A DNA stretch of 24,317 nt, taken from Phyllobacteriaceae bacterium UBA1940. GTDB taxonomy: Bacteria; Pseudomonadota; Alphaproteobacteria; Rhizobiales; Rhizobiaceae. The translations under genes and the position numbers were made by a program. Every line of letters begins with the position of its first letter. Position 1 is the stretch's first letter. Below, in pieces: positions 801 through 23,494 of the stretch. The notes beneath the pieces are model-generated. The model did not search any database, was not told the origin of the DNA, and saw nothing but the letters and a program-made list of their open reading frames with translations. Where the stretch lies: positions 1 through 24,317 of the forward strand of contig DDFA01000109.1 in NCBI GenBank assembly GCA_002336975.1, given 5' to 3'.

Positions 801-810
801 GGGAAACGAC

Positions 811-5577: not shown

Positions 5578-6354
5578 TCAGAGCGCGGTGATGCCGCCGT
5601 CGACGCCCAGTTCCTGGCCGGTCATGAAACTGTTGGCCGGGTCGGCGGCGAACAGGATCACCTCGACCACCTCGTCGACCTCGGCGAGGCGCTTCATCGG
5701 CACGCCGCGCGTCAGATCGTTGGTCGCCGCCTCGACGCCCTCGGGCGCGCGGCTGAGGAATGCCAGCGCCATCGCGGTGCGGGCAAACGACGGACACACC
5801 GCGTTCACTCGGATGCCCTTGGTGGCGTATTCGGCGGCGGCCGACTTGGTCAGGCCGATGACGCCGTGCTTGGCGGCGGAATAGACCGACAGTTTCGGCG
5901 CGCCGGCGCGGCCGGCGACGGAGGCGATGTTGACGATGGCGCCCGGCCGCCTGTCGTCGCGGAACTGCCGCTCCATCAGCGGTATCTGATATTTCATCGC
6001 AAAGAAGACGCCGAGCAGGTCGATCTCGAAAATCCGCCGCGCTTCGGCCGAGGGCACCTGCGGCAGTTTCACGAAAGTCTGGGCGACGCCGGCATTGTTG
6101 ATGGCGATGTCGAGACCGCCGAACGACTTTTTCGCCAGCGCGACCAGGTCCTTCGACAGCCGCTCGTCGGAAATGTCGCCGGCAAGCGTCGCGGTCTTGC
6201 CCGGCAGGCTTTGCGCGAGCTCCTTCAGCGGCCCGTCCTTGACGTCCGACAGCACCAGGTTGGCGCCGGCCTGTGACAGGCGCTCGCAAAGCCTGCGCCC
6301 AAATCCGCCGGTAGCCCCAGTCACCAGCGCCGTCATTCCCTCAAAACGGCTCAC
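5578..6354 (-). CDS. SDR-family oxidoreductase (NAD-type)
   Basis: This is a classical short-chain dehydrogenase/reductase of 258 aa, probably acting on a hydroxyacyl- or ketoacyl-CoA intermediate given its neighbours. The glycine motif TGATGGFG is at 12-19 and NNAG at 86-89. The catalytic Ser is S145 (VNIAS) and Y158-x3-K162 is intact. D37 at the end of the second strand favours NAD(H) over NADP(H). The start is GTG at 6354, with AGAGGG about 9 bases upstream. It is the last gene of a four-gene minus-strand operon, starting 5 bases after the phosphotransferase stop. It could serve as a 3-hydroxyacyl-CoA dehydrogenase; the substrate cannot be told from sequence. Confidence 0.9.
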   Translation of the reverse strand: MSRFEGMTALVTGATGGFGRRLCERLSQAGANLVLSDVKDGPLKELAQSLPGKTATLAGDISDERLSKDLVALAKKSFGGLDIAINNAGVAQTFVKLPQVPSAEARRIFEIDLLGVFFAMKYQIPLMERQFRDDRRPGAIVNIASVAGRAGAPKLSVYSAAKHGVIGLTKSAAAEYATKGIRVNAVCPSFARTAMALAFLSRAPEGVEAATNDLTRGVPMKRLAEVDEVVEVILFAADPANSFMTGQELGVDGGITAL

Positions 6355-6359
6355 GTCGA

Positions 6360-7391
6360 TTACCCTCTTTCAATCAATGCGACTGCTTCGGCGGCGATCA
6401 GTTTCACTGCCGCGCCAAATGTCTGCCCCCGCTCCGGGTTCGAGGCGTTTCCATCCAGCGAGCGCTTGTAGACGCCCTGCAGGATAGCCGCCAGCCGGAA
6501 GAAGGAGAAGGCAAGGTAGAATACCCAGTTGTCGATCGGCCCGATGCCCCGTCGGCGACAATATGCGTCCACATAATCACGTTCGGATGGCAATCCGATC
6601 GCCTGCCGGTCGATGCCGCCAAGCCCGCGAAAACCCGAATCGTGCGGCAGCCGCCATTGCATGCACTGATAGGCGAGATCGGCGAAGGGGTGGCCGAGCG
6701 TCGACAGTTCCCAGTCGAGCACGGCGATCAGCTTTTCGCTGTCCCTGGCGATCATCACATTGTCGAGCCGGTAGTCGCCATGCACCAGCGACACCATGCC
6801 GTCATCGGCCGGAAGGTTCTGCTCCAGCCACGCCATCAGCCGGTCCATCGCCTCGATCGCGCCGGTTTCCGACGCCTTGTACTGGCTCGACCAGCGCGCC
6901 AGCTGGCGCTCGAAATAATTGCCCGGCCGGCCATAGTCGGCCAGTCCGACCGCGTCGATGTCGACGTTGTGCAGGTCGGCCAGCGTGCGGTTCATCGCGT
7001 CGTAGATCGCGGCGCGTTCGCCATTGGTCGCCAGTTCGGCCAGCGCCGGATCCCAGAAAATCCGCCCGTCGAGAAACTCCATCACCAGGAACTGCCGCCC
7101 GATCGGCGAATCCTCGCCCGACAGATGCAGCATCCTGGGCGCCGGCACCGGGGTCTGCTCCAGCGCCTTCATCACCCGGTATTCGCGGTCGACGGCGTGC
7201 GCGCTCTTGAGCAATTCGCCCGGCGGCTTGGCGCGCAGCACGAATTTGCCGCCCGTCGCCTCGATCAGATAGGTCGGGTTGGACTGGCCGGTCTTGAATT
7301 TGACGATCCCGGTCAGGCTGCCAAAACCGGGGACATGCCGGGCGAGGTAGGGGCCAAGCGCGGCGGCGTCGAGCGTATTGGCGTCGCTCAC
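6360..7391 (-). CDS. APH-family phosphotransferase, ACAD10/11 kinase-domain type
   Basis: The protein (343 aa) belongs to the aminoglycoside/choline kinase-like (APH) fold, in the subgroup found beside acyl-CoA dehydrogenases and fused to them in animal ACAD10/ACAD11. Visible motifs: GQSNPTY (35-41) and VLRAKP around R53/K55 of the N lobe, the catalytic loop HGDYRLDN (204-211, D206 as base), and the metal-binding D226 in DWELS. The kinase core therefore looks complete. In the ACAD10/11 and LvaA systems the kinase phosphorylates the 4-hydroxyl of a 4-hydroxyacyl-CoA, and that role is inferred here. It is unlikely to be an antibiotic-resistance enzyme, because the context is acyl-CoA metabolism. 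The GTG start overlaps the maoC-like stop by 4 bases. The frame is intact and nothing suggests transfer. Confidence 0.9.
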   Translation of the reverse strand: MSDANTLDAAALGPYLARHVPGFGSLTGIVKFKTGQSNPTYLIEATGGKFVLRAKPPGELLKSAHAVDREYRVMKALEQTPVPAPRMLHLSGEDSPIGRQFLVMEFLDGRIFWDPALAELATNGERAAIYDAMNRTLADLHNVDIDAVGLADYGRPGNYFERQLARWSSQYKASETGAIEAMDRLMAWLEQNLPADDGMVSLVHGDYRLDNVMIARDSEKLIAVLDWELSTLGHPFADLAYQCMQWRLPHDSGFRGLGGIDRQAIGLPSERDYVDAYCRRRGIGPIDNWVFYLAFSFFRLAAILQGVYKRSLDGNASNPERGQTFGAAVKLIAAEAVALIERG

Positions 7392-7876
7392 GGCGCAAGA
7401 TCCTCCGGATCGAGCACGGAGATCGTCAGCCAGTGGGCGGTCAGCGCCGGCTTGGCCGATCCTTCGATCTCGATCGTCACGTCATAGGCCAGCTGCACCA
7501 TGCCCGACGGGCGCGCGTTGACGCTGGCGAGGACGAAGCGGGTGCGGATGCGCGCGCCGGATTTCACCGGCGCCTGGAAACGCAGTTTGTCAAAGCCCTG
7601 ATTGATCGCCATTTTCGACTTTTCGATCGACGGCAGCGTTTCGTAGGTCATCGCCGACAGCAGCGACAGCACCAGGAACCCGTGCGCGATGGTGCCGCCA
7701 AACGGCGTTTCGGCGGCCCGCGCCGGGTCGGTATGGATGAACTGGTCGTCGTCGGTCGCCACCGCAAACTTGTCGATGATGTCCTGGGTTACGGTGCGCC
7801 ACGGCGACAGGCCGATCTCCTGGCCGACATGGGCGGCGAGGTCTGAAGCCTTGATCGATCTCGGCTGTGTTGACAT
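7388..7876 (-). CDS. MaoC-like (R)-hydratase / NodN-type hot-dog protein
   Basis: A 162-aa single hot-dog domain protein of the MaoC dehydratase family, whose members add water to or remove it from enoyl-CoA esters. The active-site helix reads TDDDQFIH, with D43 and H48 in the catalytic spacing, followed by ARAAETPFGGTIAHGF. This is the variant with Q-F in place of the N-P seen in PhaJ-type hydratases, as in NodN-like proteins. I start it at the ATG at 7876, because AAGGA lies just upstream and the N-terminus then fits the family. The frame stays open to 7972, but that extension lies inside the preceding SDR gene. It begins 2 bases after the SDR stop and overlaps the kinase gene by 4. It probably hydrates the enoyl-CoA made by the pathway. 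Confidence 0.88.
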   Translation of the reverse strand: MSTQPRSIKASDLAAHVGQEIGLSPWRTVTQDIIDKFAVATDDDQFIHTDPARAAETPFGGTIAHGFLVLSLLSAMTYETLPSIEKSKMAINQGFDKLRFQAPVKSGARIRTRFVLASVNARPSGMVQLAYDVTIEIEGSAKPALTAHWLTISVLDPEDLAP

Positions 7877-7878
7877 TG

Positions 7879-8694
7879 CTAGTCCTTGAACAGGGTCATG
7901 CCGTGCTGCACCGATTGTCCGCCATCGAGCGGCAGTATCGCGCCAGTAACATAGCTTCCCCCTCTGCCGCAAAGGAACAACGTCGCCGCGGCGATATCGC
8001 TCGGTGCGCCGATACGGCCGAGCGGCACCCGCTTGCCGACCTTGTCGGCGCCTTCCTGCGATGCGGTGGCGAATGCGGTCATGCGGCTCTGGAAGGGCCC
8101 CGGCGCAAAGGCGTTGACGGTGATCCGGCGCTTTGCGAATTCGCTCGCCAGGGTGCGGGTCAAATGGTGCACGGCGGCCTTCGAGGCGGTGTAGGAATAG
8201 GCGTCGTCTGCCAGCGGCTGGGTGCCCATCACCGAACCGAGATTGATGACGCGCGCCGGATCGTCATCGGTTGCGGCGGCGTCGAGCAGCGGCAGCAATT
8301 GCCGCGTCAGGTGAAACAGGCCGGTGACGTTGACATTCATGACCTTGGCCCAGGCGGCGTAGGGGAAGGTTTCGAGCGGCTCGCCCCAGGACACGCCGGC
8401 ATTGTTGATCAGGATGTCGAGCGTCTTGGTGCGCGCCGCCACTTCGGCGGCCAGCGCGTCGACGCCGGCCTCGCTCGACACGTCGCCGCCAAATCCCTCG
8501 GCGTCGCCCGGTCCGCCCAGCTTGTTGATCTCGGCGGCGACGCGTTCGCAGTCGGCAGCCTTGCGCGAGGCGATGAAGACGCGCGCGCCGGCCATCGCCA
8601 GCGCGGTGGCGGCCATCCGGCCGATGCCGGTGGCGGCGCCGGTGACCAGCGCGGTCTTGCCCCGAACCGAAAACAGATCCTCATAGATCGACAC
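7879..8694 (-). CDS. SDR-family oxidoreductase (NADP-type), first gene of minus operon
   Basis: A classical SDR of 271 aa. The glycine motif TGAATGIG is at 18-25 and NNAG at 97-100. Catalytic residues are S154 (NLGS) and Y168-x3-K172. S43-R44 after the second strand suggests NADP(H), unlike the SDR at the end of the same operon. The GTG start at 8694 follows GGAGGG at a spacing of 8 bases, which makes it secure. It is divergent from the tetR gene and faces a palindrome-rich control region. By context it may be a keto-group reductase or a hydroxyacyl dehydrogenase. In the lva pathway an oxidoreductase reduces the 4-oxo group before phosphorylation, and this gene is a candidate for that step. 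Confidence 0.9.
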   Translation of the reverse strand: MSIYEDLFSVRGKTALVTGAATGIGRMAATALAMAGARVFIASRKAADCERVAAEINKLGGPGDAEGFGGDVSSEAGVDALAAEVAARTKTLDILINNAGVSWGEPLETFPYAAWAKVMNVNVTGLFHLTRQLLPLLDAAATDDDPARVINLGSVMGTQPLADDAYSYTASKAAVHHLTRTLASEFAKRRITVNAFAPGPFQSRMTAFATASQEGADKVGKRVPLGRIGAPSDIAAATLFLCGRGGSYVTGAILPLDGGQSVQHGMTLFKD

Positions 8695-8714
8695 GTTCCA
8701 AACCCTCCGGTCGC

Positions 8715-8731
8715 CGCCATCGGCGATGGCG
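8715..8731. repeat. 7-bp inverted repeat in the divergent promoter region
   Basis: Arms CGCCATC (8715-8721) and GATGGCG (8725-8731) are separated by 3 bases. The repeat ends 3 bases before the TTGACA box. It may be a second protein-binding site, or a hairpin in the leader of the minus-strand transcript, which would run through it. Short GC-rich repeats arise easily by chance in this genome. Confidence 0.35.
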
Positions 8732-8733
8732 CG

Positions 8734-8762
8734 TTGACAACATACCCGGTAGTATGTTCATC
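8734..8762 (+). promoter_or_regulatory. Candidate tetR promoter with embedded operator
   Basis: A consensus -35 box TTGACA is at 8734-8739. A perfect palindrome, AACATAC (8739-8745) - 6 bases - GTATGTT (8752-8758), occupies the spacer up to the expected -10 position. The best -10 candidates (TTCATC at 8757, or CATCAT at 8759 with a long spacer) are weak. A dyad of this size between -35 and -10, beside a tetR gene, is the usual arrangement of an autoregulated TetR-family operator. It could repress both divergent operons. The promoter assignment is inferred; the repeat is directly visible. Confidence 0.6.
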
Positions 8763-8781
8763 ATTTGCATGTCCGTAAAGC

Positions 8782-8806
8782 CCCGCCGGCGACAAGAACC
8801 GGCGGG
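8782..8806 (+). repeat. Leader hairpin just upstream of the tetR ribosome binding site
   Basis: Arms CCCGCCGG (8782-8789) and CCGGCGGG (8799-8806) are perfect complements around a 9-base loop. The stem ends 4 bases before the GGAGGA box at 8811-8816. It would lie in the 5' leader of the tetR transcript and could affect ribosome access. Confidence 0.5.
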
Positions 8807-8810
8807 CGAA

Positions 8811-8816
8811 GGAGGA
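8811..8816 (+). promoter_or_regulatory. Strong ribosome binding site without a standard start codon nearby
   Basis: GGAGGA here is as good as any ribosome binding site in the window. No ATG, GTG or TTG lies at a suitable distance in any frame. CTG at 8821 is 4 bases downstream and in frame with the TetR gene. The first standard start, GTG 8851, is 34 bases away. Confidence 0.5.
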
Positions 8817-8850
8817 ACCACTGTCGCAGACCGGCGCAAGCGAACTGGTT

Positions 8851-9459
8851 GTGGATGGGTCGCGAGCCGACATCCTCAGCGCGGCCGCGCACTGCTTTTC
8901 GGAGCGCGGCTACGCAGCGTCGTCGATCGACGACGTGGCGCGCAGGCTGGGCGCGACGAAGGGCCGGGTCTACCATCATTTCTCGTCGAAGGGCGATCTG
9001 TTCGCGCAGGTGTTCCGGACCGGCATGGACATGAATTTCGAGGCGATCCGCCCCTTTGCGAACAAGCCGGGCCGGGCGATCGACGTGTGGCGCGCCATGG
9101 CCGAGGTGCATGTGCGCCAGATGGTGACGACGCGGCATTTCCAGCGGGTGGTGTGGGAAGGCGTCGAGATGCATCTGCGCGGCTCGACGACGCCGGAACA
9201 GCGCAGCGTCTACAATGAGCTGGTCGAATACCGCACCGCCTACAGCAAGATGTTCCGCACCGTCATCGAACGCGCCCGCCGCGAAGGCGACATGCTTTTC
9301 GACAATGCCAGCATTGCCACGCAGGTGATGTTCATCGCGATGAACTCGCCGATTTTCTGGTACTCGCCGCGTTCGGGCGAGACCGCTGACGATATTGAAC
9401 GGATAGTCCGCCAGGTGGTCGATTTCGCCCAGGGCGGTCTTGGAAGCAGGACTGGATAG
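8851..9459 (+). CDS. TetR/AcrR-family transcriptional regulator
   Basis: A DNA-binding repressor of 202 aa from GTG 8851. The N-terminal TetR helix-turn-helix is clear: ILSAAAHCFSERGY, then SIDDVARRLGATKGRVYHHFSSKGDLF (about 8-51). The C-terminal ligand domain is divergent, as is normal for the family. The ligand is probably a CoA ester or free acid of the pathway, by context. It is divergent from the minus operon and 3 bases upstream of the acyl-CoA dehydrogenase gene, so it likely controls both. The start is uncertain. A strong GGAGGA at 8811-8816 precedes an in-frame CTG at 8821, which would add 10 residues, whereas GTG 8851 has only a poor site. The frame has no other ATG, GTG or TTG back to the stop at 8776. 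Confidence 0.9.
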   Translation: MDGSRADILSAAAHCFSERGYAASSIDDVARRLGATKGRVYHHFSSKGDLFAQVFRTGMDMNFEAIRPFANKPGRAIDVWRAMAEVHVRQMVTTRHFQRVVWEGVEMHLRGSTTPEQRSVYNELVEYRTAYSKMFRTVIERARREGDMLFDNASIATQVMFIAMNSPIFWYSPRSGETADDIERIVRQVVDFAQGGLGSRTG

Positions 9460-9462
9460 AAG

Positions 9463-10701
9463 ATGACCGAGATGAATCTGGGGATGACCGAACGGCTGAA
9501 GCCGATCCACGCTCAGGTGGCGCGGATGGTGCGCGACGAGATCATTCCGCTCGACGAGGAATTTCTGGCCGAGGTCGGCAAGGCCGGCGACCGTTTTGCC
9601 TACACCAGGCGCCAGACCGAGATTCTGGAAGGGCTGAAGGCGAAGGCAAAAGAACGCGGCCTGTGGAATTTCTGGCTCACCGATTCGGACCGCGGCTACG
9701 GCCTGACCACCGTCGAATACGCCTATCTGGCCGAGGAAATGGGCAAGGCGCATCTCGGCGCCGAAACTTTTAACTGCTCGGCCCCTGACACCGGCAATAT
9801 GGAAGTGCTCGAACGCTACGGTACGCGGGCGCACAAGGACAGATGGCTCAAGCCGCTGCTCGACGGCGAGATCCGCTCCGCCTTCCTGATGACCGAGCCG
9901 GACGTGGCGTCATCTGACGCCACAAATATTGCGATGCGCTGCGAGCGCGACGGCGACGACTATGTGCTCAACGGCGAAAAATGGTGGTCGTCGGGGGCAG
10001 GCGATCCGCGCTGCAAGATCTACATCACCATGGTCAAGACCTCCGATACCGCGCCGAGGCACCAGCGGCATTCGATGATCCTGGTGCCGTCCGACGCCAA
10101 GGGCGTGGAGAAGGTGCGCGCCATGCAGGTCTATGGCGAGGACGACGCGCCGCACGGTCATCTGCACATGCGCTTCACCGACGTCAGGGTTCCCGCCTCC
10201 AACCTGCTGCTCGGCGAGGGCAGGGGGTTCGAGATATCGCAGGGGCGGCTCGGTCCCGGCCGCATCCATCACTGCATGCGCGCCATCGGCCAGGCCGAGC
10301 GGGCGCTTGAGCTGATGTGCAAGCGGTCGCTGCGCCGCGAGGCGTTCGGCCAGCCGCTGGCCAAGCTCGGCGGCAATTACGACATCATCGCCGACGCCCG
10401 CATGGACATCGAGATGGCGCGGCTGCTCTGCCTCAAGGCGGCGTGGATGATGGACCAGGGCGACCCCGTGGCCGCCGCCCCGTGGATCAGCCAGATCAAG
10501 GTCGCCGCGCCGAAGATCGCGTTGCGCATCGCCGACGAGGCCGTGCAGATGCACGGCGCCGCCGGCATCAGCCAGGATACGCCGCTCGCGCGTTCGTGGA
10601 CGCATCTGCGCACCCTGCGGCTGGCCGACGGACCCGACGCGGTGCACCGCCGCCAGATCGCCCGCACCGAACTGCGCAAGCACACGCAGGAGAAGGTGTG
10701 A
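9463..10701 (+). CDS. Acyl-CoA dehydrogenase, ACAD10/11 type
   Basis: An FAD-dependent acyl-CoA dehydrogenase of 412 aa in the ACAD10/ACAD11/LvaC subgroup. The family motif AFLMTEPDVASSDATN is at 140-155, GPGRIHHCMRAIGQAE follows GRL at 261-263, and the MHGAAGISQDTPLAR region precedes the active-site loop. At the place where most family members have the catalytic Glu, the loop reads LRLADGPDAVH, giving D389. I recall ADGPD as the subgroup norm, so it is not a lesion. In ACAD11 and LvaC the partner kinase phosphorylates a 4-hydroxyacyl-CoA and the dehydrogenase removes phosphate, and that is the inferred role here with the divergent APH gene. It begins 3 bases after tetR; the nearby ATGs at 9472 and 9484 are alternative starts. 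The stop overlaps the next start by 1 base. Confidence 0.93.
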   Translation: MTEMNLGMTERLKPIHAQVARMVRDEIIPLDEEFLAEVGKAGDRFAYTRRQTEILEGLKAKAKERGLWNFWLTDSDRGYGLTTVEYAYLAEEMGKAHLGAETFNCSAPDTGNMEVLERYGTRAHKDRWLKPLLDGEIRSAFLMTEPDVASSDATNIAMRCERDGDDYVLNGEKWWSSGAGDPRCKIYITMVKTSDTAPRHQRHSMILVPSDAKGVEKVRAMQVYGEDDAPHGHLHMRFTDVRVPASNLLLGEGRGFEISQGRLGPGRIHHCMRAIGQAERALELMCKRSLRREAFGQPLAKLGGNYDIIADARMDIEMARLLCLKAAWMMDQGDPVAAAPWISQIKVAAPKIALRIADEAVQMHGAAGISQDTPLARSWTHLRTLRLADGPDAVHRRQIARTELRKHTQEKV

Positions 10702-11672
10702 TGAAGGCCGTCATCGTCCGCGACTACGGTCCGGTCGACGCGCTCGACTACGCCGACTGGCCCGAACCCGTCGCCAGGGGACGCCAGCTCGTCATCCGGT
10801 CCGAGGCCATCGGCGTCAATTTTCCCGACGGCCTGCTGGTGCAGGGGCTCTACCAGATGAAGCCGCCGACGCCGTTCGTGCCGGGCATGGAGGTGGCCGG
10901 CCGGGTGCTGTCGGTCGGCGACAAGGTGTCGGGTTTTGCGCCCGGCGACCGCGTCGTGGCGCTCACCACCATCGGCGGTTACGCCGAACAGGTGGCGACC
11001 GACGCGGCGACGGCGATGAAACTGCCGGACGGCATTTCCAACGAAGACGCCTGCGCGCTGATCTGCGGCTATTCGACCTCGCACTATGCGCTGAAGCAGC
11101 GCGGCCAGCTGAAAGCCGGCGAGACGCTGTGCGTGCTCGGCGCCGCCGGCCTGACCGGGTTGGCCGCGGTGCAGATCGGCAAGGCGATGGGCGCGCGCGT
11201 CATCTCGGTGGCCTCGACGCCGCAAAAGCGCCAGATCGCGCAGGACAACGGCGCCGATATCGTCATCGGCTACGACAATCTCAAGGACCGTCTCAAGGAA
11301 CTCACCGACGGCAGGGGCGTCGATGTCGCCTACGACCCGGTCGGCGGCGAGGCGTTCGACGCGCTGTCGCGGTCGATGGCGTGGAACGGCCGCCTGCTGG
11401 TGATCGGCTTCGCGTCGGGAACCATTCCCAAGCTTCCGGTCAACCTGGCCCTGGTCAAGGGCTACAGCGTCGTCGGCGTGTTCTGGGGCGCATTCACCCA
11501 GAGGGAGCCGGAGGCCTATGCCGACAATATGCGCGAACTGATCGGCTGGCACGTCGCCGGCAAGGTCAAGCCGCTGATCGAGGGCGTCTATCCGCTGTCC
11601 GACGCCGCCAGCGTGCTGAGCCGGGTGATCGGCCGCGGCGCGACCGGAAAACTCATTCTCAAACCGGAGTAG
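10701..11672 (+). CDS. Zinc-less medium-chain NADPH:quinone reductase-like protein
   Basis: A 323-aa medium-chain reductase of the quinone oxidoreductase branch. It has an N-terminal GroES-like domain (PFVPGMEVAG at 58-67) and a Rossmann domain with the nucleotide loop GAAGLTGLA at 147-155. The cysteine ligands of zinc-containing alcohol dehydrogenases are absent. Members reduce enones, quinones or enoyl-CoA double bonds with NADPH. Here it may reduce an unsaturated intermediate of the acyl-CoA pathway, but its substrate is unknown. The ATG at 10701 overlaps the previous TGA by one base, with AGGAGA just upstream, so the start is well supported even though the frame is open back to 10317. The length is normal. 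Confidence 0.88.
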   Translation: MKAVIVRDYGPVDALDYADWPEPVARGRQLVIRSEAIGVNFPDGLLVQGLYQMKPPTPFVPGMEVAGRVLSVGDKVSGFAPGDRVVALTTIGGYAEQVATDAATAMKLPDGISNEDACALICGYSTSHYALKQRGQLKAGETLCVLGAAGLTGLAAVQIGKAMGARVISVASTPQKRQIAQDNGADIVIGYDNLKDRLKELTDGRGVDVAYDPVGGEAFDALSRSMAWNGRLLVIGFASGTIPKLPVNLALVKGYSVVGVFWGAFTQREPEAYADNMRELIGWHVAGKVKPLIEGVYPLSDAASVLSRVIGRGATGKLILKPE

Positions 11673-11677
11673 GCACG

Positions 11678-12721
11678 ATGTCAGTCCCGCACGACATGCA
11701 GGCGCTTCTTCTCAACGATGACGGCTATACGACGAAGCCTTCGGGTTCGGTGCTCGAGGCGATGGAGCCCTATGTGTCGCCGGGGCGCATCGAGGTGCCG
11801 CAGCCGACCGGGTCCCAGGTGCTGATCAAGGTGTCGCTGGCCTCGATCAATCCGTCCGACGTGATGTTCGTCAAGGGCATGTACGGCCAGCCGCGCAAGC
11901 AGGGCCGCCCCGCCGGCTTCGAGGGCGTCGGCGTGGTCGCGGCGGCGGGCGACGACCGGGTGGCGAAGGGGCTGATCGGCCAGCGCGTCGCCTTCGCTAC
12001 CGGCACGTCGAACTGGGGGTCGTGGGCGCAATACTGCATCGCCGACGCCTCGGTGTGCATTCCGCTGATGGACGGCGTCAAGGATGTCGATGCGGCGGCG
12101 ATGATCGTCAATCCGCTCACCGCGCTCGCCATGTTCGACATCGTCAAGGCCGAGGGCGAAAAAGCCTTCATCATGACCGCCGCGGCCAGCCAGCTGTGCA
12201 AGCTGATCATGAACGTGGCGCGCGACGAGGGTTTTCGTCCGATCGCCGTGGTGCGTCGCGACGACCAGATCCCGATCCTCGAAAAGGCCGGCGCGGCGGT
12301 CGTGGTCAATGCCGCGAAGGAGAGTTTCGCCCGCGACATCGCCGAAGTCTGCAAGGCCGAAAAGCCGCGTATCCTGCTCGACGCCGTCACCGGGCCGCAG
12401 GCGTCGACCATCTTCAACGCCATGCCGCGCCGCGCCCGCTGGATCGTCTACGGTCGGCTCGACCAGTCGCCGACCGTCATCCCCGAGCCGGGGCAACTGA
12501 TCTTCATGCACAAGACGATCGAGGGGTTCTGGCTGTCGGAATGGATGCGCTCGGCGGATGCGAGCAAAAAACTCGGCGCGATCGTCGAGGCGCAGAAACG
12601 TTTCGTCGACGGCCGCTGGTCGACCGACGTCACCGCGATCGTGCCGCTGGCCGAGGCGATGAGCAGCGTTCCGCGGGAACTTTCCAGGCCCAATGGAAAG
12701 GTCTTCATCGCACCGCAATAA
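11678..12721 (+). CDS. Second medium-chain reductase, zinc-less, with unusual nucleotide loop
   Basis: A 347-aa MDR-superfamily protein. The GroES-like half contains QVLIKVSLASINPSDV and GFEGVGVV (about 47-86), and the Rossmann half has the loop TAAASQLC (167-174) instead of a glycine-rich GxGxxG. This alanine-rich loop is seen in some crotonyl-CoA or enoyl reductase-like MDRs, so it may still bind NADPH. It begins 5 bases after the preceding reductase but is clearly different from it in sequence, so this is not a recent tandem duplication. The start ATG 11678 lacks a strong ribosome binding site and may be coupled to the upstream stop. The frame remains open further upstream (to 11129), but that lies within the previous gene. 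The function is unassigned. Confidence 0.85.
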   Translation: MSVPHDMQALLLNDDGYTTKPSGSVLEAMEPYVSPGRIEVPQPTGSQVLIKVSLASINPSDVMFVKGMYGQPRKQGRPAGFEGVGVVAAAGDDRVAKGLIGQRVAFATGTSNWGSWAQYCIADASVCIPLMDGVKDVDAAAMIVNPLTALAMFDIVKAEGEKAFIMTAAASQLCKLIMNVARDEGFRPIAVVRRDDQIPILEKAGAAVVVNAAKESFARDIAEVCKAEKPRILLDAVTGPQASTIFNAMPRRARWIVYGRLDQSPTVIPEPGQLIFMHKTIEGFWLSEWMRSADASKKLGAIVEAQKRFVDGRWSTDVTAIVPLAEAMSSVPRELSRPNGKVFIAPQ

Positions 12722-12830
12722 CAACAATTCGTGGCGCTTGCCCTTCGGCACGGGCCGCCTGTAATGTTAGAAGAATGTCGGGACAATATGACAAAGATCA
12801 TACCCGGCGGAAAATGGGAGGAAGGCGTCG
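12722..12830 (+). promoter_or_regulatory. 109-base gap before the liv genes, possible internal promoter
   Basis: This is the only sizeable gap inside the plus-strand gene run. TTGCCC at 12738-12743 and TAATGT at 12762-12767 form a weak -35/-10 pair. A small inverted repeat, TATGA (12787-12791) and TCATA (12798-12802), is followed by CATACCCGG (12799-12807), which matches the left half of the tetR-side palindrome for 9 bases. A long purine tract GGGAGGAAGG (12816-12825) serves as ribosome binding site for the TTG start at 12831. Separate control of the importer genes is plausible, not shown. Confidence 0.35.
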
Positions 12831-13706
12831 TTGGACGTATTGCAGCTCTTTGTGAGCGGCCTGGCGAATGGCTGCGTGTATGGTCTGATCGCGCTCGGCT
12901 TCGTGCTCATCTACAAGGCGACCGAACAGGTCAATTTCGCCCAGGGCGACATGATGATGCTCGGCGCATACATCACCGTCGGCCTGACCAACGCCCAGTT
13001 CATGGGCTGGCCGTTCTGGATCGCCGCGCCGGTGGCCATCTTCCTCATGGGCGTGTTCGGCTACCTGCTCGACATGCTGGTGCTGCGGCGCATGTTCGGA
13101 CAATCGCAGATCGCCGTCGTGATCCTGACCATCGCGCTCGGTTTCGTGCTGCGCTTCCTTGCCGGCCTGATCTGGGGCCATGAACCGGTGTCGCTGGAAT
13201 CGCCGATCGTCGGCAAGGACGTGCGCTTCGGCGGCCTGGTGCTGGGGCTCGACGAACTGGTCATCATCCTGGTGACGCTGCTGCTGACGGTGCTGCTCTA
13301 TTTCTACTTCAACCGCACCCGGCTCGGCGTCGCCATGCAGGCCTCGTCGCAAAACCAGCTCGCCGCCTACTATATGGGCATCCCGGTCAAGCGGGTGAAC
13401 TCGCTGATCTGGGCGCTGGCGGGGGCGGTCGCGGCGATCGCCGGCATCCTGTTCGCCTCCAAGGGGTCGATCGATCCGTCGACCGGTCTGCTCGGCATCA
13501 AGGCGTTCGCCGCATCGGTCATCGGCGGCTTCGGCTCGCTGCCCGGCGCGCTGCTTGGCGGCCTCATCATCGGCCTGATCGAGCCGTTCGCGTCACGCTA
13601 CATCACGCCCGAATACGCGCGGGTGCTGCCCTACCTGCTGCTGTTCCTGATCCTCATCTTCCGTCCGCACGGCATTCTTGCCCAAGTGCACAGCAAGAAG
13701 GTCTGA
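12831..13706 (+). CDS. livH: Branched-chain-type ABC importer, inner-membrane permease LivH
   Basis: A 291-aa polytopic permease of the LivH family (hydrophobic/branched-chain amino acid transporter type), half of the membrane channel with LivM. Typical segments are NGCVYGLIALGFVLIYKATEQVNFAQGD near the N-terminus and the cytoplasmic loop GVAMQASSQNQLAAYYMGI that contacts the ATPases. FAASVIGGFGSLPGALLGG and the C-terminal IFRPHGIL end are also present. About eight hydrophobic helices can be seen. The start is TTG at 12831, supported by GGGAGGAAGG at 12816-12825; no ATG or GTG fits. livM follows after 6 bases. The context with acyl-CoA enzymes suggests that the cargo is an organic acid and not leucine. 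Confidence 0.93.
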   Translation: MDVLQLFVSGLANGCVYGLIALGFVLIYKATEQVNFAQGDMMMLGAYITVGLTNAQFMGWPFWIAAPVAIFLMGVFGYLLDMLVLRRMFGQSQIAVVILTIALGFVLRFLAGLIWGHEPVSLESPIVGKDVRFGGLVLGLDELVIILVTLLLTVLLYFYFNRTRLGVAMQASSQNQLAAYYMGIPVKRVNSLIWALAGAVAAIAGILFASKGSIDPSTGLLGIKAFAASVIGGFGSLPGALLGGLIIGLIEPFASRYITPEYARVLPYLLLFLILIFRPHGILAQVHSKKV

Positions 13707-13712
13707 CGCCAG

Positions 13713-14810
13713 ATGAGGACATTGTTCAAGACCAGCTACGACACCGACATCAACCTGTTCGAGGACGGCCGCCAGGCGTTCTGGTACCTGTCGCTGCTGG
13801 CGCTGGCGGTGGCGCTGCCGCTTCTGATCGACGACTTTGCGCTGGGCGAGATGACCAGCCTGCTGATCTGGGCGATCGCCGGCATGGGACTGATGATCCT
13901 GGTCGGGCAGACCGGGCAGGCGAGCCTCGGCCACGCCGCTTTCATGGCTGTCGGCTGCTACGCCAATGTTCTCTTGCAGCAGCAGGGCCTGCCGTTTCTC
14001 GCCGCCTTCGCGCTGGCGGGGCTGATCTCGGGCGTCGCCGGCTTCCTGCTGGCGCTGCCGATGACCAAGCTGCACGGCATCTATCTCGGCATCGCGACGC
14101 TGGCGATCTCGATCCTGGCCGACGACCTGATCGTCATCCTCGACCCGCTGACCCAGGGCGTGCGCGGGCTCGAGGCGCCGACGATCAACATTTTCGGCCT
14201 GGAAGTCGACCGCTACGGCAATCCCGACCGGTTCTATTTTCTGGTGCTGGCGGTGGCGCTGCTGGTCATCGTCGCCTACCGAAACCTGCTGCGCTCGCCG
14301 CTCGGGCGGTCGTTTGCGGCGGTGCGCGATTCGGAAGTGTCGGCGCGCGCCATGGGCGTCAACGTCGCCCGCGCCAAGGCGGTGTCGTTCGGCATCTCCA
14401 CCGCGATCGTCGGGCTGGCAGGCGCGCTGATCGGCCACAATGCCGGCATCTTCAACAATGAGACGTTCAACCTGATCCTGTCGATCCAGCTGCTGCTGAT
14501 GATCGTCATCGGCGGCCTCGGTTCGATCCACGGCGCGTTCCTGGGCGCCGCCGTCATCACTTTCCTGCCGCAGTTCATCAGCCATGTCCGCGACTGGATC
14601 GGCGGCTATTTCGGCGCCACCTCGGCGACCTTGCCGGGCGTCGAGACCGCGGTGTTCGCCGCCATCCTGATCGGCTTCATTCTGTTCGAGCCGCGCGGCA
14701 TCTACGGCCGCTGGCTCAAGATCAGGACCTATTTCCAGCTGTTCCCGTTCTATCGCCGCGACATGTTCAGACGGCAGAAGAGCTACCTCAAGACGGAGCG
14801 GATGCGATGA
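13713..14810 (+). CDS. livM: Branched-chain-type ABC importer, inner-membrane permease LivM
   Basis: A 365-aa permease of the LivM family. GMGLMILVGQTGQASLGHAAF and KLHGIYLGIATLAIS are family signatures. The EAA-like loop is GRSFAAVRDSEVSARAMGVN, and IGGLGSIHGAFLGAA with a C-terminal FEPRGIYGRW end the core. Unlike short LivM proteins it has an N-terminal tail of about 25 residues before the first helix and a basic C-terminal tail (YRRDMFRRQKSYLKTERMR), probably cytoplasmic. It follows livH by 6 bases and overlaps livG by 4 (ATGA), so the two are coupled. The start ATG at 13713 has no strong ribosome binding site but follows the livH stop closely. Confidence 0.93.
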   Translation: MRTLFKTSYDTDINLFEDGRQAFWYLSLLALAVALPLLIDDFALGEMTSLLIWAIAGMGLMILVGQTGQASLGHAAFMAVGCYANVLLQQQGLPFLAAFALAGLISGVAGFLLALPMTKLHGIYLGIATLAISILADDLIVILDPLTQGVRGLEAPTINIFGLEVDRYGNPDRFYFLVLAVALLVIVAYRNLLRSPLGRSFAAVRDSEVSARAMGVNVARAKAVSFGISTAIVGLAGALIGHNAGIFNNETFNLILSIQLLLMIVIGGLGSIHGAFLGAAVITFLPQFISHVRDWIGGYFGATSATLPGVETAVFAAILIGFILFEPRGIYGRWLKIRTYFQLFPFYRRDMFRRQKSYLKTERMR

Positions 14811-15595
14811 GCGCGCTCTTGGAAGTGCGCAATGTGACGCTGAGGTTCGGCGGCGTCACCGCTGTCGACGACGTCTCCTTCGACGTCGAGGAAGGCGAGG
14901 TGTTCGCGCTGGTCGGCCCCAACGGGGCGGGCAAGTCGACGCTGTTCAACCTGATCTCGCGGTTCTACGATCCGGTCGCCGGCGACATCCGCTTCGCCGG
15001 CGAGAGCATCCTGAAGAAACAGGCGCACGAGATCCCCGGGCTCGGCATCGCCCGCACCTTCCAGAACATCGAACTGTTCGACCAGGCGACGGTGCTGCAG
15101 AACCTGCTGGTGGGCCGCCACCGCCACCGCAGGAGCCATATGTGGAACGAACTCCTGTTTACCCCCTTCGTGCGGCGCGAGGAGCGCCGCCACCGCGAGG
15201 CGGTCGAGAAGGTGATCGATTTCCTCGACCTGCAGGCCTACCGCGAAAAATACATCGCCGGGCTGCCCTACGGCGTGCGCAAGGTGGTCGAAATGGGCCG
15301 CGCGCTGGCGATCGAGCCGCGGCTGCTGCTGCTCGACGAGCCGGCGTCCGGCCTGTCGGTGGAGGAAACCCAGGACGTCGCCTTCTGGGTCGAGGACATC
15401 AAGACGCAGATGGGCGTCACCGTCATCATGGTCGAGCACGACATGCATCTCGTCTCCGCCGTCTCCGACCGCGTCATGGCGCTGGCCGACGGCAAGACGC
15501 TGGCCATCGGCTCGGCGTTCGAGGTGCAGAACAATCCCAGGGTCATCGAGGCCTATATCGGCGTTTCCAACGACGCCCGGCAGGTGGTCGCGTGA
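14807..15595 (+). CDS. livG: ABC importer ATPase LivG
   Basis: A 262-aa ATP-binding subunit of the LivG family. Walker A is GPNGAGKST (37-45), the Q-loop region reads ARTFQNIELF, Walker B is LLLLDEP (173-179) and the switch histidine is H211. The ABC signature is the non-consensus LPYGVRKVVE (153-162) in place of LSGGQ. Departures such as LAYGQQ are usual in LivG, so activity is still likely. The start overlaps the livM stop by 4 bases and the stop overlaps livF by 1. It should pair with LivF to drive import through LivH/LivM at the inner membrane. Confidence 0.94.
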   Translation: MSALLEVRNVTLRFGGVTAVDDVSFDVEEGEVFALVGPNGAGKSTLFNLISRFYDPVAGDIRFAGESILKKQAHEIPGLGIARTFQNIELFDQATVLQNLLVGRHRHRRSHMWNELLFTPFVRREERRHREAVEKVIDFLDLQAYREKYIAGLPYGVRKVVEMGRALAIEPRLLLLDEPASGLSVEETQDVAFWVEDIKTQMGVTVIMVEHDMHLVSAVSDRVMALADGKTLAIGSAFEVQNNPRVIEAYIGVSNDARQVVA

Positions 15596-16401
15596 TGCTG
15601 AAACAGGAGATCAAACTGTCGTCCAGCGCCGCCGACGTGGTGCTCTCGGTCAAGAACCTCGAAAGCTTCTACGGCCCGATCATGGCGATCCGCGGCGTGT
15701 CGCTGGAGGTGCGGCAGGGACAGATCGTCACCGTGCTGGGCGCCAACGGCGCCGGCAAGACGACGCTGCTCAAGACCATTTCCGGGGTGATGAACCCCGA
15801 AAAGGGCGAGATCTGGTACGGCGGCCGCAACATCGCCGGCGCGGAGCCGGACGTGGTAGTGCGGGCCGGCATCAGCCATGTGCCCGAGGGGCGCGAGGTG
15901 TTTCCGCTGCTGACCGTCGAGGACAATCTCAGGATGGGTTCCTTCGTGCGCCGCGACACGGCCGGCATCAGGGCGGACGAGGAGATGGTCTACGGCTATT
16001 TCCCGATCCTGGCCGAGCGCCGCCGCCAGGCCGCCGGCACGCTGTCGGGCGGCCAGCAGCAGATGCTGGCGATCGGGCGGGGACTGATGGCGCGGCCGAA
16101 GCTGATGCTGCTCGACGAGCCGTCGCTGGGGCTGTCGCCGTTGCTGGTGAAGGAGATCTTCACCATCGTGCGCCGCCTCAACAAGGAGCAGGGCGTCACC
16201 ATGATGCTGGTCGAGCAGAACGCCAAGGTGGCGCTCGAAGTCTCCGATTTCGGCTACGTCATGGAATTGGGGCGGATCGTGATGGCCGACAGGTCGAAGG
16301 CGCTGCTGCAGTCGAAGGACGTGCAGGAGTTCTATCTCGGCGTCCAGGGCGAGACACAGCGCGGCCAGAAGCGGTGGAAACAGAAGAAGACATGGCGTTG
16401 A
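15595..16401 (+). CDS. livF: ABC importer ATPase LivF
   Basis: A 268-aa ATP-binding subunit of the LivF family. Walker A is GANGAGKTT (49-57), SHVPEGREVFPLLTVEDNL is the characteristic LivF segment, the signature is LSGGQ (150-154) and Walker B is LMLLDEP (170-176), with VEQNA in the switch region. The protein is longer than typical LivF (about 235 aa), with a short N-terminal extension (MLKQEIKLSSSAADV) and a basic tail (RGQKRWKQKKTWR). The ATG at 15595 overlaps the livG stop by one base, so the start is likely right. An acyl-CoA synthetase gene follows after 19 bases. Confidence 0.94.
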   Translation: MLKQEIKLSSSAADVVLSVKNLESFYGPIMAIRGVSLEVRQGQIVTVLGANGAGKTTLLKTISGVMNPEKGEIWYGGRNIAGAEPDVVVRAGISHVPEGREVFPLLTVEDNLRMGSFVRRDTAGIRADEEMVYGYFPILAERRRQAAGTLSGGQQQMLAIGRGLMARPKLMLLDEPSLGLSPLLVKEIFTIVRRLNKEQGVTMMLVEQNAKVALEVSDFGYVMELGRIVMADRSKALLQSKDVQEFYLGVQGETQRGQKRWKQKKTWR

Positions 16402-16420
16402 GCGCAGCAGGGAGGCCAGC

Positions 16421-18310
16421 ATGACCGTCGTGGAAAAATTGCCGCCGCAGCGCAGCCTGGGCGGCCACACCTTCAACGAGGACCTGTCCAGGGGGCCGTT
16501 CTATTTCGACGGCTGCGACACGCTGCCGAAACTGTTCCGGCAAAACTGCGAAAAATACGGCCAGCGCATCGCGCATCGCGAAAAGGACTACGGCATCTGG
16601 CTGTCGTTCTCCTGGTCGGAGTTCTACGACAGCGCCCGCCTGATCGGCCTCGGCCTGGTGGCGCTCGGCCTCAAGCGCGGCGAAGTCGTGTCGATCCTGT
16701 CGGAAGACAACAAGGAATGGCTCTATACCGATCTCGGCGTCCAGTCGGTCGGCGGCATCGCGTCCGGCGTCTACACAACCGATTCCGCCTCGCAGCTCAA
16801 ATATCTGGTCAATGACAGCGACAGCCGCTTCCTGTTCGTCGAGAATGACGAGCAGCTCGACAAGTTCCTGTCGGTGCGCGACGACATGCCGGGCCTGTCC
16901 TACGTCATCGTCTTCGACCGCGAGGGACTGCACGGGTTCGCCGACGACCGGGTGATCTTCCTCGACGACCTCTACCGGCTGGGCCGGGATTTCCTCAAGC
17001 AGCATCCTGGCCGCTTCGAGGAGGAAATCGCCCGCTCGACGCCGAAGGAGACCGCCATCCTGGTCTACACGTCGGGCACCACCGGCCCGCCCAAGGGGGC
17101 GATGATCAGCCATGAGAACATCATCGTCTCGATCAGCGGCGCGGCGGTCAGCCTGCCGGTGACGGAGGCCGACGAACAGGTCTGCTTCCTGCCGCTGTGC
17201 CACATCCTCGAACGCCTGATCACGGTGTTCATCCCGGTCGGCTACGGCTCGACCGTCAATTTCGCAGAAAGTCCCGAAACCGTGTTCGACAATGTGCGCG
17301 AAGTGTCGCCGCACATCTTCACCGCCGTGCCGCGGGTGTGGGAGAAGATCTATTCGCGCATCACGCTGATGTCGGCGGAATCGACCTGGTTCGGCAAATG
17401 GGCCTATCGCCAGGCGGTCGCCGCCGGCATGAAGCGTATGGGCTATCTGGAGGAGGGCAAACCGGTGCCGGCCGGCGCGGCGCTGGTCTACCGGTTCTGG
17501 GACATTGTCGTGCTCGCCAATCTGCGCCGGATGATCGGCGTCGACCGGCTGCGGCGCGGCACCACCGGCGCGGCGCCGATCTCGCCCGACCTGCTGCGCT
17601 GGTTCGGGGCCATCGGCGTGACGCTGCTCGAGGGTTACGGCATGACCGAAAGCTCCGGCGTCATCTCGGTCAACACGATGGGCGACAACAGAATCGGCTC
17701 GATCGGCAAGGTGATCGAGGGCGGAACGGTGAAGATCGCGCCGGACGGGGAAATCCTCTATCGCGGCGCCAACGTCTTCAAGGGCTACTGGAACAAGCCG
17801 GACAAGACCGCAGAGACGATTTCGCCCGACGGCTGGCTGCACACCGGCGACATCGGCCGCATCGACAATGAGGGCTACCTCACCATCACCGGCCGCGCCA
17901 AGGACATCATCATCACCGCCGGCGGCAAGAATATCACGCCCGCCGAGATCGAGAACCGGCTGAAATTCTCGCCCTACATCTCCGATGCCGTCATCATCGG
18001 CGACAAGCGCAAATTCCTCTCGGCGCTGGTGATGATCGACCAGGAGAATGTCGAGAAATTCGCGCAGGACCGCCGCGTTCCGTTCTCGGACTTCCGCTCG
18101 CTGTGCGCGGCGCCGGAGGTCAGGCAGCTGATCGCGGGAATTGTGGAGGACACGAACCGGGAATTCGCACGGGTGGAACAGATCAAGGATTTTCGCCTGA
18201 TCGACGTGCTGCTGACCGCCGAAGACGACGAACTGACGGCGACGATGAAACTCAAACGCAGCTTCGTGGAGACCAAACACAAGAAGCTGATCGACGAAAT
18301 GTACGGCTGA
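16421..18310 (+). CDS. AMP-forming long-chain-type acyl-CoA synthetase
   Basis: A 629-aa member of the ANL superfamily, close to long-chain fatty acyl-CoA synthetases, which activate a carboxylic acid to acyl-AMP and then acyl-CoA. The P-loop YTSGTTGPPKG is at 216-226, the A5 motif EGYGMTE at 404-410 and WLHTGD ends at 477. The A8 hinge region is GRAKDIIITAGGKNITPAEIE, and the C-terminal catalytic lysine is in ATMKLKR (K610 or K612). All key residues look intact. GGAGG at 16411-16415 supports the ATG. It sits between the ABC ATPase gene livF and the binding protein gene. This suggests that the imported compound is an acid that is trapped as a CoA ester once inside. The exact chain or ring type cannot be predicted. 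Confidence 0.92.
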   Translation: MTVVEKLPPQRSLGGHTFNEDLSRGPFYFDGCDTLPKLFRQNCEKYGQRIAHREKDYGIWLSFSWSEFYDSARLIGLGLVALGLKRGEVVSILSEDNKEWLYTDLGVQSVGGIASGVYTTDSASQLKYLVNDSDSRFLFVENDEQLDKFLSVRDDMPGLSYVIVFDREGLHGFADDRVIFLDDLYRLGRDFLKQHPGRFEEEIARSTPKETAILVYTSGTTGPPKGAMISHENIIVSISGAAVSLPVTEADEQVCFLPLCHILERLITVFIPVGYGSTVNFAESPETVFDNVREVSPHIFTAVPRVWEKIYSRITLMSAESTWFGKWAYRQAVAAGMKRMGYLEEGKPVPAGAALVYRFWDIVVLANLRRMIGVDRLRRGTTGAAPISPDLLRWFGAIGVTLLEGYGMTESSGVISVNTMGDNRIGSIGKVIEGGTVKIAPDGEILYRGANVFKGYWNKPDKTAETISPDGWLHTGDIGRIDNEGYLTITGRAKDIIITAGGKNITPAEIENRLKFSPYISDAVIIGDKRKFLSALVMIDQENVEKFAQDRRVPFSDFRSLCAAPEVRQLIAGIVEDTNREFARVEQIKDFRLIDVLLTAEDDELTATMKLKRSFVETKHKKLIDEMYG

Positions 18311-18358
18311 GTTCCAGCCGCACTGGCCGAACCAATCAACGCAATGTGGAGGACTGAC

Positions 18359-19543
18359 ATGAAAAAACTACTCGCAAGCGCCATCCTCGGCGCCGGCCTG
18401 ACCGCCGGCCTTTCTGGAACCGCCCTGTCGCAGACCCAGGGCGTCTCCGACGCCGAAATCGTCATCGGGTCAAACGGCGACATGTCGGGCGTGTTCGCAT
18501 CGTTCAATGTGCAGGCGATCGAAGCCGCGCAGATGATGTTCGACGAGGTTAACGCCGCCGGCGGCATTCACGGCCGCAAGATCAGGTTCGTGGTCGAGGA
18601 TCACGGCTACCAGATGCCCAAGGCGCAGCAGAACTTCAACAAGCTGGTGAACTCCGACAAGGTGTTCGCGATGATCCTCAATCTCGGCACGCCGATGAAC
18701 ATCGCCGGCTTCAAGCTGATGGAACCGAAGAAGATCGCCAATGTGTCGCCGCTCACCGCCGCGCGCCAGATGATCGAGGGCGACATCACCTACAAATACA
18801 CCGGCACGTCGTCCTACTACGACCAGCTCAGGTCGGGCGTCGAATATCTCGCCAAGGAAAAGGGCGCCAAGGAGGTCTGCGCGATGTATTTCCCGACCGA
18901 TTTCGGCCTGGAAGTATACGAGGGCGCCAAGGAAAAGGCTGCTGAACTGGGCCTGACCTTCGCCGCCGAGACGCAGCACAAGCCCGACGAGCAGGACTTT
19001 GTCGGCTCGGTGACCAAGCTCAAGGACGCCGGCTGCGACATCGTCGCCACGGCTGTCGGCATCCGCCAGACGATCACCATCCTCGGCACCGCCAAGAAGC
19101 TCGGCTGGACCGACGTCTCGTTCATCGGCGGATCGGCCGGCTTCAACACCGCCGTCGCCAAGGTGCCGGAAGGCATCACCGAGGGCTATTACGCCGCCGC
19201 CGGCTGGGCCGACCTTGAGGACAATATCGCCAAGGTGCCGGAACTGAAGACCTGGGCCGAAGCCTTCCAGGCAAAATATGGCAAGCCCGCCGGCACCGCC
19301 GCGCAGCTTGGCTACGGTGCGGCCAACACGCTGGTCAAGGCGCTGGAGGCGGCCGGCAAGGATCTGACGCCGGAGAGCTTCCAGAAGGGCATGGAGTCGC
19401 TCGAATTCGACGACAAGATCAACAGCGCCCACATCAAATACGGCCCTGGCGACCATCAGGGCGCGGACGTGATCGTGATTTCGCAGATCAAGGGCGGCAA
19501 GTGGGTCGAAGTCGGCCGCATGGACCAGGCGCCGGCGAAGTAG
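18359..19543 (+). CDS. Periplasmic substrate-binding protein of the Liv-type ABC importer
   Basis: A 394-aa binding protein of the Peripla_BP_6 (LivK-like) class, the periplasmic receptor for the importer encoded upstream. The signal peptide is MKKLLASAILGAGLTAGLSG plus TALS, with likely cleavage after S24 (A-L-S before QTQ). The mature start SDAEIVIGSNGDMSGVFASF is typical, as are VRFVVEDHGYQ-like strands and the C-terminal QIKGGKWVEVGRM. The ATG at 18359 is chosen because GGAGGA lies at 18348-18353 and the signal peptide then begins with MKK; five extra upstream residues are in frame but spoil it. It follows the synthetase gene by 48 bases and is closed by a terminator. Homologues of this class bind amino acids, aromatic acids or fatty acids, so the ligand is open. 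Confidence 0.93.
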   Translation: MKKLLASAILGAGLTAGLSGTALSQTQGVSDAEIVIGSNGDMSGVFASFNVQAIEAAQMMFDEVNAAGGIHGRKIRFVVEDHGYQMPKAQQNFNKLVNSDKVFAMILNLGTPMNIAGFKLMEPKKIANVSPLTAARQMIEGDITYKYTGTSSYYDQLRSGVEYLAKEKGAKEVCAMYFPTDFGLEVYEGAKEKAAELGLTFAAETQHKPDEQDFVGSVTKLKDAGCDIVATAVGIRQTITILGTAKKLGWTDVSFIGGSAGFNTAVAKVPEGITEGYYAAAGWADLEDNIAKVPELKTWAEAFQAKYGKPAGTAAQLGYGAANTLVKALEAAGKDLTPESFQKGMESLEFDDKINSAHIKYGPGDHQGADVIVISQIKGGKWVEVGRMDQAPAK

Positions 19544-19564: not shown

Positions 19565-19594
19565 AGCCGCGCGGGCGACCGCGCGGCTTTTTTT
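19565..19594 (+). terminator. Intrinsic terminator after the ABC/acyl-CoA operon
   Basis: A perfect 9-bp stem AGCCGCGCG / CGCGCGGCT (19565-19573 and 19580-19588) with a 6-base loop runs into seven consecutive Ts (19588-19594). It lies 21 bases past the stop of the binding-protein gene. It is a textbook Rho-independent terminator and marks the 3' end of the plus-strand gene run. Confidence 0.9.
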
Positions 19595-23491: not shown

Positions 23492-23494
23492 CCG

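Follow-up and report, generated by a model that had tools for sequence, protein, structure and literature searches.

A conserved Rhizobiaceae gene cluster with an ACAD10/11-type kinase and dehydrogenase, an ABC importer and a putative TetR operator shared with a second operon

The contig DDFA01000109.1 of Phyllobacteriaceae bacterium UBA1940, a member of the Rhizobiaceae, was analyzed over its full length of 24,317 nucleotides, which is called the window below. It carries two divergent operons in which an aminoglycoside phosphotransferase (APH)-fold kinase and an acyl-CoA dehydrogenase (ACAD) are accompanied by an ATP-binding cassette (ABC) importer. They sit between a sarcosine oxidase operon (3-4674) and a resistance-nodulation-division (RND) efflux operon (20351-24316), both named from sequence. 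The leftward operon (8694 down to 5578) has the order SDR2, MaoC, kinase, SDR1, the SDRs being short-chain dehydrogenases/reductases. The rightward operon (8851-19543) encodes a TetR regulator, the ACAD, two medium-chain dehydrogenases/reductases (MDR1 and MDR2), LivH, LivM, LivG, LivF, an acyl-CoA synthetase and the substrate-binding protein (Table 1). Names of the four Liv components follow from the sequences themselves and from similarity to Liv genes elsewhere. By the usual motif rule, the Asp in LSDV of SDR1 presumably marks an NAD-type enzyme and SRK in SDR2 an NADPH-type one. The MaoC gene was read from the ATG at 7876; the open reading frame (ORF) listed by the program begins farther upstream. 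An initial annotation had proposed a system that phosphorylates 4-hydroxyacyl-CoA and eliminates the phosphate, serves 4-hydroxy or 4-oxo acids such as levulinate and possesses its own importer. All genes it named were found intact where it had placed them, as were the kinase motifs HGDYRLDN (residues 204-211) and DWE (226-228); the opposite cofactor types that it gave for the SDRs are consistent with the motif rule. Its gene list lacked the two oxidoreductases of the MDR type that lie between ACAD and importer.

Table 1. Genes and sequence elements of the two divergent operons in the window.
Feature	Position	Strand	Basis and remarks
SDR1	5578-6354	-	Pfam adh_short_C2; NAD-type motif; final gene of leftward operon; adjoins kinase in relatives
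APH-fold kinase, predicted 4-hydroxyacyl-CoA kinase	6360-7391	-	PF01636, 177 bits
MaoC-type enoyl-CoA hydratase	7388-7876	-	PF01575; nearest solved Rv0130 (2c2i), 127 bits
SDR2, RhlG-like, NADPH-type motif	7879-8694	-	RhlG (2b4q), 229 bits
-35-like TTGACA	8734-8739	+	Abuts and overlaps operator; direct reading of sequence
Putative TetR operator CAACATAC-CCGGTA-GTATGTTC	8738-8759	.	In divergent promoter; sole such site in window
TetR-family regulator	8851-9459	+	PF00440 and TetR_C_24
ACAD10/11-type dehydrogenase, predicted phosphate elimination from 4-phosphoacyl-CoA	9463-10701	+	ACAD11 identity and residues
MDR1, PIG3/quinone-oxidoreductase-like	10701-11672	+	TIGR02824, 211 bits (cut-off 296.8)
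MDR2, distantly MECR-like	11678-12721	+	Close to solved 3pi7, 533 bits; MECR (1zsy), 80 bits
LivH-type permease	12831-13706	+	Sequence; conserved order
LivM-type permease	13713-14810	+	Sequence; conserved order
LivG-type ATPase	14807-15595	+	Sequence; conserved order
LivF-type ATPase	15595-16401	+	Sequence; conserved order
Acyl-CoA synthetase, long-chain type	16421-18310	+	Pfam AMP-binding_C_3; best NCBIfam FadD11, 397 bits (cut-off 950)
Importer substrate-binding protein	18344-19543	+	Pfam; nearest solved 4n03
Likely intrinsic terminator GCCGCGCGG-GCGA-CCGCGCGGC-T7	19566-19594	+	Direct reading of sequence; closes rightward operon

ACAD10 and ACAD11 are reported to phosphorylate 4-hydroxyacyl-CoA and then to eliminate the phosphate (PMC12440821, PMC11342911), and activity has been published for stand-alone bacterial homologs (PMC11342911). 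The key residues described for ACAD11 are D220 and N225 of the kinase and R626, R631, H634, R637 and the catalytic D753 of the ACAD domain, with R86 and R176 also named as CoA-contacting kinase residues (PMC12440821). The nearest solved structures of the window kinase are 3dxp (355 bits, 50% identity) and then the ACAD11 kinase domain (266 bits, 43% identity). For the window ACAD, 4hr3 ranks first (427 bits), followed by three ACAD11 chains (401-415 bits) and by the next ACAD at 152 bits; identity with the ACAD11 dehydrogenase domain is 52%. D206 and N211 of the kinase align with D220 and N225, and R262, R267, H270, R273 and D389 of the ACAD align with R626, R631, H634, R637 and D753, where positions in the structure chain are taken as one below the numbering of PMC12440821, an offset that was itself deduced. 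Among full-length proteins of the fetched loci, the two kinase residues are invariant in 105/105 distinct kinases (at least 55% identity), and the phosphate-binding and catalytic residues in 120/120 distinct ACADs (at least 65% identity). The resulting RRHRD signature was present in all 39 rows of the ACAD11 clade and in one 36%-identical row beside it, and in none of six Pim-type or DUF6285-linked ACADs. That clade, which includes ACAD11, received a support of 96 in a quick tree with flagged long branches, leaving the Pim-type and DUF6285-linked ACADs outside. In the kinase tree, where ten DUF6285-linked proteins were the only other APH kinases, the window kinase fell on the side of the ACAD11 kinase domain with a support of 100. 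Judged by residues and trees, the kinase and the dehydrogenase are of the ACAD10/11 type, and the grouping expected in the initial annotation is borne out for both proteins as far as ACAD11, the comparison of these quick trees, is concerned. A role of the kinase in aminoglycoside resistance was ruled out (APH(3') 48 bits, cut-off 205). No cluster gene was seen on the 18.6-kb contig (L073) that encodes the second-best APH protein of the genome (C93).

The cluster is conserved far beyond chance, with its order kept in other genera. Binding-protein orthologs were present in 29 relatives within the family, all of which were fetched around that gene. The complete set of 14 genes in identical order and on identical strands was found in 14 of them, three more miss one gene, and the order is broken in none, counting the genes that each has; three of the 29 loci (L106, L112, L114) end at a contig end or at the edge of the fetched stretch. 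The named loci, which are the best 80 of 589 confirmed ACAD loci, come from Mesorhizobium, Aquamicrobium, Aliihoeflea, Chelativorans, Hoeflea, Aquibium and metagenome-assembled genomes. All 14 genes were seen in 18 of these 80 and the importer in 23; in the other 57, most of them titled Mesorhizobium, the importer is not within the examined stretch. Reduced loci typically keep aph-maoC-sdr2/acad-mdr2, many with sox genes to the left and an RND gene to the right as in the window. Some GC-rich loci (e.g. L108, L213, L222, L247, L254), for which ORF calling chose antisense frames, rest on tblastn.

The co-occurrence analysis covered 101 family genomes, each from a different genus apart from the window genome and G227, which belong to the same one. 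Orthologs were accepted at identities of at least 71% for the ACAD (next hit 62%), at least 61% for the kinase (next full-length hit 53%) and at least 55% for the binding protein (next hit 37%). An ACAD ortholog was present in 44 of the 101 genomes. The kinase ortholog was detected in 43 of these 44 and in 0/57 others (nominal Fisher p 7e-28), and the binding-protein ortholog in 30/44 and 0/57 (nominal Fisher p 3e-15); both values ignore shared ancestry and are too small. In G199, the lone ACAD-bearing genome lacking a complete kinase ortholog, kinase fragments of 56% and 45% identity are present. The importer co-occurs even where it lies on a separate contig (G202, G212, G236, G250). The importer as a chance neighbor is ruled out by synteny and co-occurrence, which agree in assigning importer, synthetase and TetR control to the kinase/dehydrogenase system; the search for the same gene set in other genomes, as suggested initially, recovered an order kept across genera.

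Control of the cluster probably runs through a palindrome, CAACATAC-N6-GTATGTTC, in the divergent promoter (spacer CCGGTA in the window). Allowing one mismatch and within 1.4 kb upstream of the ACAD, it was found in 32/32 of the best 80 loci with tetR and in 0/48 without. Exact sites occur in 28 of the 101 family genomes, compared to 3 for the reversed pattern. An ACAD ortholog is present in 25 of these 28 genomes, and 19 of the 44 ACAD-bearing genomes have no exact site. The 25 genomes hold 48 exact sites, 26 at kinase/ACAD/importer loci and 22 elsewhere (in 20 genomes, all fetched); the window genome has two in total. Other arrangements carry the same operator. Two genomes (G281, G217), organized like Hoeflea poritis L202, have the kinase in a separate sdr2-aph-sdr1 operon behind this operator (L218, L219) and pimF-, pimC- and pimD-like genes after the importer operon, joined in G281 by a thiolase. 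Three others (G122, G151, G051) have three operators each, two exact and one mismatched, around ACAD and importer genes; the annotated locus of G122 also carries FadB-like, thiolase, four further ACAD and phosphatase-like genes. In G065, from another family, exact operators lie at a 57%-identical ACAD locus (L058) and at L270, the latter among tetR-, PimC/PimD-, sdr2- (67%), maoC- and thiolase-like genes, and L270 suggests a distribution of the regulon beyond the family.

The sites away from the cluster revealed a second operon. Seventeen of the 22 extra exact sites lie 19-25 nt before a gene for a PcaD-like hydrolase, which is followed in all 17 by a pimF-like gene. A thiolase was seen in 16 of these operons and a pimA-like synthetase in 14; pimC- and pimD-like genes are visible in 15, the other two (L246, L250) being cut by contig ends. 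Two other extra sites directly precede pimF (L263) and a thiolase-pimF operon (L265). In the window genome, the second site (C89:1656-1673) is 21 nt from the start of a PcaD-like hydrolase gene on a 4.8-kb contig that ends inside pimF, which leaves no more than the lactonase and the beginning of pimF visible. NCBIfam scores for L257 were 338 for PcaD (cut-off 256), 690 for PimC (624), 683 for PimA (706) and 636 for the thiolase NF005494 (615); the PimC- and PimD-like paralogs of L206 score below the cut-offs. The shared control site appears to tie the kinase/ACAD/importer cluster to a second operon that would finish the breakdown. Palindrome and second operon are the main addition to the initial annotation, and no description of cluster or operator was present among the titles and abstracts of the literature searched, which omits most subscription journals. 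By our own reading, the two extra operators of one genome (G212) that head no Pim-type operon precede a 745-aa molybdopterin-oxidoreductase-looking protein and a 600-aa ACAD-like protein; the latter gene (L253:8083-9885) begins about 20 nt past its operator and is a possible further regulon member.

The binding protein, two permeases and two ATPases of the importer are encoded in one operon. By both sequence and fold, the nearest solved relative of the binding protein is 4n03, whose title names it a binding protein of a fatty acid ABC transporter; binders of amino acids and aromatic acids rank behind it. Because of this nearness to a fatty-acid-binding protein, we favor 4-hydroxy fatty acids or gamma-lactones over levulinate as predicted substrates.

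From gene content, active-site residues, clade, synteny, co-occurrence, operator and second operon, all read from sequence, we infer the catalytic steps, substrate, repression and inducer as follows. It is rather likely that the window encodes part of a TetR-controlled regulon for the uptake and oxidation of a fatty-acid-like carboxylic acid with a 4-hydroxyl that is carried or acquired, perhaps as a gamma-lactone. The binding protein and LivHMGF would import the substrate and the cluster synthetase would form the acyl-CoA, in the case of a lactone after ring opening by the PcaD-like hydrolase from the second operon. A 4-oxo group, if present, would be reduced by an SDR. The kinase would then phosphorylate the 4-hydroxyl and the ACAD11-type flavoprotein eliminate the phosphate to give a 2-enoyl-CoA, which could be hydrated by MaoC or PimF and oxidized by an SDR or PimF before thiolase cleavage; PimC/PimD-type dehydrogenases would continue the degradation. 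Reduction of C=C bonds in unsaturated substrates is the probable role of the two MDRs. The one palindrome would let TetR repress both operons until an intermediate of the pathway appears, which is probably an acyl-CoA.

Several observations weigh against this reading, besides the inflated significance of the co-occurrence. Among the best 80 loci, 48, mostly Mesorhizobium, have the kinase without TetR and importer. G047, a genome outside the family, has the importer and synthetase (67%) and lacks the ACAD ortholog. The same cassette of liv genes, synthetase and binding protein (the last 32-36% identical) was also seen in further genomes with no such kinase in the vicinity (L118-L125), so the ligand may be fatty acids in general. 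Operators were also found in three genomes without the cluster (G242, G251, G276), with nothing decisive at L262 of G251, and three of the 22 extra sites, two in G212 (L252, L253) and one in G219 (L267), head no Pim-type operon. PcaD-like lactonases up to 73% identical are present in genomes without the cluster as well (G286, G237). Finally, the Pim-type genes could point to a dicarboxylic substrate.

This last point leads to the strongest competing explanation, that of a dicarboxylate or alicyclic-acid pathway, in which a hydroxylated dicarboxylic acid or a ring-cleavage lactone is imported and kinase and ACAD clear a 4-hydroxyl arising in Pim-type beta-oxidation. The co-regulated operon is indeed Pim-like (in L257, PimC and PcaD score over the cut-off and PimA just under it), and its PimF-, PimA-, thiolase-, PimC- and PimD-like genes resemble the pimFABCDE operon of R. 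palustris, cited as mediating dicarboxylic acid degradation (in PMC12543098). Unlike that operon, it has a PcaD-like lactonase at its head and is linked by the operator to the kinase/ACAD11/importer cluster. Moreover, the binding protein is of the fatty-acid type, the cluster synthetase is of the long-chain type and the Pim-like genes in the Hoeflea-like, G212 and G122 clusters are divergent paralogs with 30-64% identity, which together make a dicarboxylate pathway unlikely.

A variant pathway for levulinate (4-oxopentanoate), lva-like and equipped with an ABC importer, had been the initial proposal. The cluster shares the logic of kinase, LvaC-like ACAD, SDRs and synthetase with the P. putida lva operon (LvaRABCDEFG), and a putative lva cluster with LvaA and LvaC homologs, where no LvaB was found, is described in P. 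citronellolis LA18T (PMC6692424). Nevertheless, neither an LvaF/LvaG ActP-type symporter nor a sigma-54 LvaR is found in the cluster, which has an ABC importer and TetR in their place, so the organization is distinct from lva as had been anticipated. The fatty-acid-type binding protein and long-chain-type synthetase likewise speak against levulinate, and a whole co-regulated beta-oxidation operon with lactonase exceeds the needs of a C5 acid. We therefore consider a levulinate pathway improbable: of the initial proposal, the type of chemistry and the membership of the importer are supported by residues, trees, synteny and co-occurrence, and the specific link to levulinate or 4-oxo acids is not. 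An LvaB-like gene was not recognized in the conserved cluster order, and no DUF6285 match was obtained in the genome (81% complete), DUF6285 being a presumed equivalent of LvaB. As a marker for LvaB, DUF6285 was dropped: its linked kinases form their own clade (ten in the tree) and the accompanying ACADs are different. DUF6285 was detected in 18 of 249 genomes of the phylum; in 16 of these, ORF calling placed an APH-like kinase next to it or in one protein with it. These kinases are approximately 25-30% identical to the window kinase (40% over a short stretch in L243), and their ACADs, where seen, 27-40%. In the loci L226-L245, an apparently separate kinase system combines an APH-like kinase with a DUF6285 protein and, at several of them, with a further ACAD; FRQSE replaces RRHRD in the two rows tested, and the DUF6285 part seems fused to the kinase in L242-L245. 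That the cluster is a general fatty acid or isoprenoid oxidation cluster whose kinase and ACAD drifted to another function, as the kinase-free importer and synthetase cassettes and the MDRs and extra ACADs unexplained by a 4-hydroxy step might suggest, is very improbable given the conserved phosphate-binding and catalytic residues and the kinase-ACAD co-occurrence in 43/44 genomes.

Compared to known systems, the 4-hydroxy acid regulon proposed here most resembles animal ACAD10/ACAD11, with which it shares the residues of both activities and the clade. The animal proteins are bifunctional, whereas kinase and ACAD of the window are individual proteins from divergent operons and are accompanied by importer, synthetase, MDRs, MaoC and TetR. 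LvaA is reported to be only 29% identical to ACAD10/11 kinases (PMC11342911). The P. citronellolis LA18T cluster has an ActP symporter and an LvaR-type regulator as well as a histidine-phosphatase-family gene beside the kinase (PMC6692424); the window cluster has no such phosphatase. The latter gene is seemingly also found in the relatives L043 (14568-15227) and L046 (8256-8924), where a histidine-phosphatase-like gene with an RHG motif was read beside the kinase; the L043 copy had no NCBIfam match at E 1e-15. In the FadP regulons of Burkholderiales, several beta-oxidation operons are likewise under a TetR regulator, FadP being reported for Ralstonia, Burkholderia and Comamonadaceae (PMC5343134).

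The surroundings of the cluster were also examined. The sarcosine oxidase operon consists of the end of soxB, soxD, soxA and soxG, and sox genes lie on the same side in many named relatives. A GGDEF-like protein with a GDEF motif is encoded at 4679-5461 and has counterparts beside the cluster in few named relatives (L126, L127, L130, L179; 31-35% identity). Directly past the cluster terminator is a perfect 33-bp inverted repeat with a 4-nt loop (19609-19678). A 27-nt piece of its arm matches two other places in the genome (C128, C135) with 3 mismatches, which suggests a small repeat family. A 161-aa ORF (19784-20269) lies between the cluster and the RND operon.

Publications on the ACAD10/11 chemistry date from 2024-2025; in bacteria, it is known from the pathway by which Pseudomonas degrades levulinate. 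A cluster that crosses genera and comes with an importer, a regulator and a co-regulated lactonase/beta-oxidation operon would provide a genetically separable bacterial system for studying 4-hydroxy acid breakdown, including its natural substrate, transport and regulation, and enzymes for upgrading lactones and hydroxy acids may come from it. It is quite possible, and proposed here more loosely than the mechanism itself, that Rhizobiaceae and related families possess a dedicated regulon for 4-hydroxy fatty acids, gamma-lactones or 4-hydroxy-2-alkenoic products of lipid peroxidation, in which a fatty-acid-type importer, ACAD11-type chemistry, C=C reductases, a lactonase and Pim-type beta-oxidation are joined under one TetR palindrome. 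Such a dedicated 4-hydroxy acid regulon, if true, would be a free-living counterpart of the animal ACAD10/11 pathway.

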